Source of the DNA: Ectothiorhodospiraceae bacterium
Lineage (GTDB): Bacteria > Pseudomonadota > Gammaproteobacteria > Nitrococcales > Aquisalimonadaceae
Direction of reading: 5' to 3'
DNA: 64,000 nucleotides
Assembly: GCA_020831845.1 (NCBI GenBank)
Contig: JAFIFV010000043.1
Location: 31,673-95,672 of the forward strand
Part shown: positions 6,067-64,000 of the stretch, in pieces
How the letters are laid out: each line of letters begins with the position of its first letter
Numbering within the stretch: the stretch's first letter is position 1
Translations under genes and position numbers: made by a program
Notes under the pieces: model-generated
Seen by the model: the letters and a program-made list of their open reading frames with translations, nothing else
Database searches by the model: none
What the model was told of the DNA's origin: nothing

Positions 6067-6159
6067 TCTGTCTGTTTCCGGTATCGGCTGGAGCGGTATG
6101 GGAAGGCCGCCGACGGCTGGTGCGGGAGGAGGAGCCTTCGCCGCCGACGGCCGGGCGCT

Positions 6160-6431
6160 TAAGGAAGCGCTGAAGTATCCACGTTGTCGCGCTCGAGACC
6201 GGTTTTCGTTCGTGGCCATTGCCTGCGAACGCCGTCTTGCCAGTGCGCGCCGATGGCTTCGCAGAGCCCCATGCGAATCGATCAGAGGCTCCCAAAGGGT
6301 TACGGTCAGATTTTTCGCGCTGCGTTGTTGCGGCGCTTGACCGTGGAATGACCACGGCGCTGCGCACCGCGCCTTGCATCGCGAAAAATCTGACCGTAAC
6401 GCGGCAGCGTGAGTACTTCAGCGCTTCCTTA
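6160..6431. repeat. 272-bp palindromic MITE-like repeat, complete copy (copy A)
   Basis: The element is bounded by perfect 18-bp terminal inverted repeats, TAAGGAAGCGCTGAAGTA (6160-6177) and TACTTCAGCGCTTCCTTA (6414-6431). Inside lies a perfect 21-bp inverted repeat (6299-6319 with 6380-6400) enclosing a smaller hairpin, CCGTGG AATGA CCACGG. It has no convincing ORF. A second copy begins at 63767: 80 bases of the right half (6310-6389) match with one difference, and 31 bases of the left part (6188-6218) also match with one difference, while the centre differs. It fills the gap between lysR and the aldehyde dehydrogenase gene and supplies the latter's stop codon. Confidence 0.85.
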
Positions 6432-7949
6432 GAAGAACCCCAGCGCCCTGGGGCTGTAGCTCACCAGAAGATTCTTGGTCTGCTGGTAGTGCTCAAGCAT
6501 CATCTTGTGCGTCTCACGCCCGATGCCCGACTGCTTGTAGCCGCCGAATGCTGCGTGCGCCGGGTACAGGTGATAGCAGTTGGTCCACACGCGGCCGGCC
6601 TGAATGCCGCGGCCGAGACGATAGGCGGTGTTCATGTCGCGGCTCCAGACACCGGCTCCCAGGCCATAGAGCGTGTCATTGGCGAGCGCCAATGCCTCGT
6701 CCTCGTCCTTGAAGGTGGTGAGAGAAACCACGGGGCCGAAGATCTCCTCCTGGAATATGCGCATGCTGTTGTTGCCCCTGAATAGCGTCGGTTGTACGTA
6801 GTACCCGTCCGCCAGATCGCTGCCGACCGACGCCCGGGAGCCGCCGGCCAGGCACTCCGCACCTTCCTGGCGACCGATTTCCATGTAGCCGAGGATCTTT
6901 TCCAATTGCTCGGAGGATGCCTGGGCCCCGATCATCGTTTCTGTATCCAGCGGGTTGCCCTGCTTTACACGGCCAAAGCGCTCGACGACGCGACCGATGA
7001 ACTTGTCGGCAATGGATTCCTGCATCAGCGCGCGCGAGGGGCAGGTGCAGACCTCGCCCTGATTCAGGCAGGCCAGCACCACGCCCTCGATTGCCTTGTC
7101 GAGAAAATCATCGTCGTGCGCCATCACGTCTTCCATGAAGATGTTCGGCGACTTGCCGCCCAGCTCCAGGGTGACCGGGATGATGTTTTCGGCGGCATAC
7201 TGCATGATCTGGCGTCCGGTGGAGGTTTCACCGGTGAATGCAACCTTGGCGATGCGATCACTGGTTGCCAGCGGCTTGCCGGCCTCGAGGCCAAAACCGT
7301 TGATCACGTTGAGTACGCCTGGGGGCAGCAGATCCTGCACCAGTTCCAGCCAGATATGGATGGAGGCCGGTGTCTGCTCGGCGGGCTTGAGAACGATGCA
7401 GTTGCCCGCCGCGAGCGCCGGCGCCATCTTCCAGGCTGCCATCAGCAGCGGGAAGTTCCAGGGGATGATCTGCGCGACAACGCCCAGCGGTTCATGGAAG
7501 TGATAGGCGACGGTGGTTTCGTCGACCTCTCCCAGAGAGCCCTCCTGGGCGCGAATGCAGCCGGCGAAGTAGCGGAAATGGTCGATCGCCAACGGCACGT
7601 CGGCAGCGAGGGTTTCGCGTATCGGCTTGCCGTTGTCCCAGGTCTCGGCTACCGCCAGACGCTCGATATCGGCTTCCATCCGGTCAGCGATCTTCAGCAG
7701 GATATTCGAGCGTTCGGTGATCGAGGTGCGGCCCCAGGCTGTTTTCGCGGAGTGAGCGGCATCCAGCGCCCGTTCGACGTCCTGCTGGCACGAGCGTGCA
7801 ACCTCACAGAACGGCTGTCCAGTAACCGGCGTTACGTTCTCGAAATATCGACCGTTGATAGGCTCTACCCATTCACCATTGATGAAGTTGCCGTAGCGCG
7901 ACTTGAACTGAACTTTTGAATCCTGATCCCCAGGTCTCGCGTAGATCAT
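6429..7949 (-). CDS. NAD-dependent aldehyde dehydrogenase, ExaC/AcoD (acetaldehyde) type
   Basis: The protein of about 506 residues matches the group of acetaldehyde dehydrogenases linked to ethanol and acetoin catabolism. It starts MIYARPG and ends [13 protein letters not shown], both typical of that group. Cofactor and active-site signatures are [31 protein letters not shown] with the general-base Glu, and [11 protein letters not shown] with the catalytic Cys. I chose the ATG at 7949 over the GTG at 7952 because AGGAG sits 6-7 bases before it. Its stop codon TAA is formed by the last three bases of the repeat element (6429-6431). A sigma-54-like promoter and an 18-bp palindrome lie upstream, so it is probably controlled by an enhancer-binding activator that is not encoded in this window. 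No partner alcohol dehydrogenase is adjacent. Confidence 0.92.
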
Positions 7950-8085
7950 CACATTCTCCTCGGTGTCTCGCTTGTCGCTGTTGTAGCGCCGGCTGCGGTG
8001 CCGGCGCTTTGATCATCGCGCCAGGGCTGGCCAACCGGTGTCAAAGGCGGGCCGGCTGTGCCGACGTCGATTCGCGAACATCCGA

Positions 8086-63686: not shown

Positions 63687-63766
63687 CGGATTGTTCCTGA
63701 ACTTCCGTTGATCCGGGCATACTACCGGCTCAAGGCGGACTTGCCTTGTGCCGGGGAGGCGACGCA

Positions 63767-64000
63767 AGGGAAGCACTGATTAATTCCCACGTTCGCGCTC
63801 GAGACCGATTTTCGTTCGTGGCCAGGAGCAAGGCGCCGCAGGTAGTGGTTCTACCTGTGGTGGCTTGCGACACCGCCACGGGCGAAAATCGGCCGAGCCC
63901 CTTGGGGTTACAGCTGGATTTTTCGCGCTGCGTTGTTGCGGCGCTTGACCGTGGAATGACCACGGCGCTGCGCACCGCGCCTAGCATCGCGAAAAATCCA
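63767..64000. repeat. palindromic MITE-like repeat, copy B, cut by window edge
   Basis: It begins AGGGAAGCACTGATTAATTC. It shares with copy A a 31-base block (63794-63824, one mismatch) and an 80-base block (63918-63997, one mismatch). A left stem CCGATTTTCG-TT-CGTGGC (63805-63822) pairs with GCCACG-GG-CGAAAATCGG (63875-63892), with CAGGTAG..CTACCTG nested inside. The right stem TGGATTTTTCGCG pairs with CGCGAAAAATCCA at the very edge. The right terminus is outside the window. Confidence 0.85.

Follow-up and report, generated by a model that had tools for sequence, protein, structure and literature searches.

Bacterial miniature inverted-repeat transposable elements (MITEs) are usually taken to be decayed relics of one insertion sequence (IS), each family bound to its own transposase. 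Mobilised by IS transposases, they are short, non-coding and multicopy, with terminal inverted repeats, short target duplications and a stable predicted transcript fold (PMC10969869). The element described here lies at 6163–6428 of a 64,000-nt window (the whole stretch of DNA analysed) on contig JAFIFV010000043.1 of an Ectothiorhodospiraceae bacterium. It is like the known MITEs in its short, non-coding, multicopy form, terminal repeats, target duplication and fold. It differs in its interior: compensatory change keeps this part across lineages, and several unrelated ends are joined to it. Judged from sequence, it is probably a MITE mobilised in trans by a transposase of the IS5 group, with a body shared across different ends. 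A conserved body with exchangeable ends appears, as far as checked, to be new.

With the IS5 group of the IS5 family the element shares GGAAGCGCTGA-like ends and a YTAR duplication, but it possesses neither the transposase gene nor the IS interior. TIMEs, Tn3-derived elements of Pseudomonas, keep a constant 262 bp despite divergence, have similar predicted folds, occur on plasmids and carry 38-bp Tn3-type ends with 5–6 bp duplications (PMC4133298). Constant size, folds and plasmid occurrence are alike in the window family, compared by description. Membership of the TIMEs was rejected: the window element has GGAAGCGCTGA ends and 4-bp YTAR, not 38-bp Tn3-type ends and a 5-bp duplication. REP/REPIN and BIME sequences, compared on length and layout only, are also intergenic multicopy hairpins and symmetric doublets; the window element exceeds them greatly in length and has target duplications and perfect terminal repeats. 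Inspection of the motif was the sole ground for setting aside an integron attC site. An earlier note, made from the letters of this DNA alone, had recognised no named family. In agreement with it, Rfam gave no relevant match for the window element or 15 related loci, and no account was found in literature searched by end sequence and description, most subscription journals lying outside that search.

The terminal inverted repeats TAAGGAAGCGCTGAAGTA (6160–6177) and TACTTCAGCGCTTCCTTA (6414–6431) are perfect over 18 bp including target letters, as the earlier note had read them. Its extent of 272 bp was too long. The outermost TAA/TTA letters belong to the target site and lie outside the element; after correction of the boundaries by multi-copy comparison, the element proper is GGAAGCGCTGA...TCAGCGCTTCC, 266 bp. 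No credible open reading frame (ORF) or protein is present within these 266 bp, as had been stated. The host's own genome yields 86 BLAST matches, the full-length copies measuring 271–275 bp with the flanking TA included. Ends at no more than one mismatch number 143 in this genome, versus none for a reversed-pattern control. The 17-nt end, with three mismatches allowed, occurs twice in the window (0.04 expected from the shuffled window). The element is multicopy also across the host's family, with matched ends in every subfamily. A two-ended pattern scan, covering one genome per species, recovered the same ends at the same spacing in Nitrosospira, Spartobacteria, Burkholderiales, Methylobacter, Ectothiorhodospiraceae and others, and many of these elements are flanked by perfect 4-bp YTAR repeats. 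Five of the scan's loci (L083, L086, L093, L111, L113) are likely due to chance, having no terminal repeat beyond the pattern and no target duplication.

The 4-bp flanks are identical in 36 of 64 distinct full-length copies. YTAR stands on both sides in 41 copies, and 32 of the 41 pairs are identical (11.3 expected; none of 2000 shuffles as high). A 2-bp TA target duplication, the first reading, did not hold in a wider set, where the GGAAGCGCTGA family has 4-bp YTAR. In three other genomes copies reach 97–99.6% mutual identity, which points to recent movement there. Minimal end-to-end forms also occur, 32 bp long in the own genome (L054, L055, L065) and 49–50 bp long in the GGGTCTG type (L261, L267, L269, L273, L274). 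They consist of little beyond two terminal repeats, and some have intact target copies. They likely arose by collapse of the arms and are possibly still mobile.

A YTAR target is the habit of the IS5 group. The own genome contains an IS5-group transposase in an open frame (NF033581, E 5e-102). The IS copy that carries it has the ends GGAAACGCTGATCTAAT / GGAGACACTGATTTATTC and the flanks CTAG/CTAA. Four intact IS copies are present in a genome of the same family (G003), with 95% identical protein, the ends GGAAGCGCTGATCTAAT / GGAAACGCTGATTTATTC and YTAR flanks. In relatives (G005, G010; alignment rows L035, L037), the first 18 nt of the MITE ends are the same as one or the other IS end. The element is read as a MITE because it is multicopy, has a duplicated target and shares ends and target with an IS5-group IS. 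The non-autonomous mobile element of the earlier note is thus upheld; further copies with the same ends, target duplications and a transposase with matching ends, all named in that note as things to look for, were found. In genomes with other ends, IS427-type transposases (DUF4096) were rejected as candidates; they gave no full end match, and partial matches only in G169.

In the proposed mechanism, the IS5-group transposase of separate insertion sequences would bind the shared end GGAAGCGCTGA and insert the element at YTAR sites, with duplication of 4 bp. Landing on a stop codon would restore that codon, so the host gene would be spared. The same body, joined to other terminal repeats and another target duplication, would have moved between transposase systems during evolution.

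Several observations weigh against this reading. The own-family subset alone has 5 of 10 YTAR pairs identical, which is not significant, a result consistent with older copies there. An empty site for the window copy was not found, the neighbourhood being non-syntenic in relatives. Only about 12 nt of the own-genome IS ends match the MITE ends that are commonest in that genome. No DDE_Tnp_1 transposase was found in several element-rich genomes, where the scans were mostly empty, and no IS-sized pair of GGGTCTGTTGACG ends was found in G132, G260 or G457. Mobilisation in trans is inferred from sequence; no transposition was observed. Ends and target in common with IS5-group copies would also suit an ordinary deletion derivative of such an IS, with an unremarkable interior. 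However, similarity to the IS, as far as it was read, is limited to the ends, and the interior is strongly structured and matches differently ended elements elsewhere. A simple deletion derivative is therefore hardly credible.

The interior of the element recurs between other ends. The covariance model of the family detects full-length elements in 27 of 399 Pseudomonadota genomes and in 2 of 289 Verrucomicrobiota genomes; the latter count shows that the model is no general detector of palindromes. In many of the new elements the terminal repeats are near-perfect, about 18–33 bp long and unrelated to GGAAGCGCTGA. Their end types include GAGCCTGTCTCATAAAATC, GGGTCTGTTGACGTTTC, GAGCTCATTTCATAAATATT, CCTGCCCTCCCAAATAAG, GAACGTGTTTACGATCTC, ACCAAGTCTCGATGATAGGG, GAGCGCGATGACGTGGG and others. 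Two loci of a genome sorted with Verrucomicrobiota (L277, L279; G675) are GGGTCTGTTCCC-type elements close to gammaproteobacterial ones, by horizontal transfer or on a mis-binned contig.

Bodies trimmed by 28 nt at each end were compared by BLAST, independently of the covariance model (E-values are for a small database). Matches were obtained between L118 and L191 (73% over 224 nt, E 3e-31), L183 and L195 (72% over 222 nt), L175 and L186 (91% over 53 nt), and the window copy and L175 (75% over 91 nt, E 1e-10). At E < 1e-5, 39 of 46 trimmed bodies form one cluster. Bodies of Spartobacteria and Burkholderiales join it only at 1e-3, and their homology rests on the model and the layout. Elements of the GGGTCTG type have a 2-bp TA target duplication instead of 4 bp. 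Taken together as sequence comparisons, these results suggest that one parasite body moved between several transposase systems.

The converse arrangement is also found. Unrelated interiors with GGAAGCGCTGA ends (L075, L092, L078, L105, L106) score no more than 40 bits or do not match the model, so that ends alone contribute little to the model score. Four of these loci (L075, L092, L078, L106; Methylobacter, Opitutaceae, Desulfarculales) have GGAAGCGCTGA ends and YTAR flanks around the unrelated interiors. The ends are thus an independent module that several bodies share. The variety of ends on homologous bodies, and the lack of a DDE_Tnp_1 transposase in several host genomes, could also be accounted for if one recombinase recognised the body and the ends needed only to be complementary, their differences then being drift and not a change of transposase. 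Such a recombinase is very unlikely: the ends and target duplication of the window family match an IS5-group IS, GGAAGCGCTGA ends are carried by unrelated bodies as well, and the target duplication varies with the ends (4-bp YTAR versus 2-bp TA).

The body has a quasi-symmetric layout of outer stem, arm A, CC-GG mini-hairpin and arm B, with arms of about 105 nt each. Element length is steady at 261–281 bp, and the four-part layout is retained across lineages. Among 20 full-length family copies, 45 of 106 pairs are altered at both positions yet still pair, versus 20.1 in shuffles. Sliding the partners by 1–3 columns in the same alignment leaves at most 13 pairs with double changes. In a diverse alignment, 103 of 106 pairs show compensatory change, with 92% paired versus 56% when shuffled. 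The family covariance model matches the elements of Nitrosospira, Spartobacteria, Burkholderiales and others over their full length, with E-values mostly between 1e-20 and 1e-34 on the best strand; a sequence-only model scores far below it on the same elements. The structured unit suggested in the earlier note is accordingly backed by very strong compensatory change.

Both strands fold alike. Deviations from majority Watson-Crick pairs comprise 34 G-T and 24 A-C events overall. Arm A leans towards G-T (19 to 5); no strand preference is seen in arm B (7 to 10) or the outer stem (8 to 8). The similar overall counts favour upkeep at the DNA level or on two strands and weaken a plain RNA-gene reading. 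There is moderate evidence, drawn from these counts, that complementarity is maintained at the DNA level or on both strands rather than for one functional RNA.

The motif GC[AT]AGGCGC is present in 55 of 78 arms and in 38 of 39 elements, versus 3.2 arms in dinucleotide shuffles. It is partly unpaired in the fold and mostly lies about 53–58 nt from the element end, with counts of 1–5 in other windows. Most GGAAGCGCTGA-type elements of other taxa in this set were selected on their ends rather than on their body, which frees the result from circularity in their case. The fold could be neutral if template switching in replication copies one side of the palindrome onto the other, complementarity then persisting without function. 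In keeping with this, changes run mainly from Watson-Crick to Watson-Crick, the near-equal G-T and A-C events are unlike those of a strand-specific RNA, and the collapsed 32–50 bp forms show replication-type deletion of arms. Neutral correction of the palindrome should, however, erase a mismatched site, yet the motif is kept at about nt 53–58 in 55 of 78 arms; the constant 261–281 bp and four-part layout across lineages are likewise left unexplained. A neutral fold is thus unlikely, and GC[AT]AGGCGC is read as a putative protein recognition site.

The right target copy, TTAG (6429–6432), coincides with a stop codon. Its complement, CTAA, contains the TAA stop of an aldehyde dehydrogenase (ALDH) gene (6429–7952). 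ALDH orthologues in five relatives have the same end point (GFF or GLF, then stop) and no element there; the natural stop of the G009 orthologue is CTAG. At 36 of 145 element ends, an ORF of 150 codons or more terminates exactly at the junction TAR; the two remaining frames give 11 each. Because YTAR contains TAA or TAG, frequent placement on stop codons follows from the target, and further targeting may be unnecessary. By regenerating the stop codon on landing, the element would make many insertions harmless. A 94-bp derivative (L059, 1501–1594) stands between two convergent long ORFs, both TAA stops lying exactly at its two junctions.

Frequent exact placement on stop codons, on both sides of a convergent pair in L059, would also be expected of a domesticated functional RNA (a 3'-UTR stabiliser or two-way terminator) whose mobility is a relic. 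Folding of both strands alike and the lean of arm A towards G-T over A-C (19 vs 5) would agree with such a role. The placement, however, already follows from the YTAR target. Copies of up to 99.6% identity and perfect target duplications, both in other genomes, show recent movement, no strand-specific wobble signature is seen overall, and Rfam holds no match. Domestication as an RNA is accordingly improbable, and the element is still read as a mobile MITE.

The window copy is flanked on the left by the target copy TTAA (YTAR; 6159–6162), assigned from sequence and the duplication statistics over 64 copies. The element proper matches the covariance model at 201 bits (model positions 1–274). The left terminal repeat, 5' side of the outer stem, occupies 6163–6190 on the plus strand (GGAAGCGCTGAAGTA perfect, imperfect beyond); the right terminal repeat, 3' side of the stem, occupies 6401–6428 on the minus strand. 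Arm A corresponds to 6191–6290, placed by alignment with intact copies and by the fold, and its normal hairpin is not formed in this copy. Arm B (6299–6400) is a hairpin with a 25-nt base stem and a CCGTGG/CCACGG tip. The motif GCAAGGCGC (plus strand: GCGCCTTGC) is located at 6369–6377 on the minus strand, partly unpaired.

The segment at 6214–6293 (plus strand) appears to be inserted or recombined and corresponds to the terminal half of another subfamily with GATCGATTC-type ends (about 76–83% identity over 71–84 nt in relatives). The two ends, like the right half, belong to the type common in the own genome. On its sequence, the window copy is a mosaic of two subfamilies with the left arm replaced at about 6214–6293. 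It consequently has one clean inner hairpin, and the right arm alone folds as in typical copies. The earlier note had called the element complete, which holds for the presence of both ends but not for the left arm. The nested inner inverted repeat that it described is present at 6299–6323 / 6376–6400 (25 nt, 96% complementarity), with the CCGTGG/CCACGG hairpin within. The mosaic structure, the YTAR target often equal to a stop codon, and the body with different ends in other bacteria go beyond that note.

A second family copy is located at 63766–64000 (plus strand; 244.8 bits, model 1–235), cut off at the window end. Contigs frequently end inside family copies (e.g. L002, L014, L019, L024). 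One copy (L061, 1241–1514) has one arm inverted relative to other members, a pattern expected from recombination inside a hairpin arm.

Plasmids of Azotobacter chroococcum, Pseudomonas aeruginosa and Halomonas carry relatives of the element, and no annotation lies beneath these. The plasmid search with the L178 element returned four records; the window, L175, L195 and L102 elements, used as queries, gave no match on plasmids, and phage and viral-contig searches gave none. It is tentatively proposed that the body is an ancient structured parasite module independent of any one transposase. Selection would keep its fold and its putative protein-recognised motif, and the ends of different systems would have been acquired repeatedly during its spread through Pseudomonadota and into Spartobacteria.

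Exact targeting of stop codons explains how such elements could gain high copy number without gene disruption. A single interior retains its fold although nearly every base pair has changed, and it is combined with some dozen kinds of ends and two or more kinds of target duplication. The finding turns the role of the interior into a testable question. If true, the interior and not the ends would be the lineage, and some non-coding elements would survive by switching transposases.
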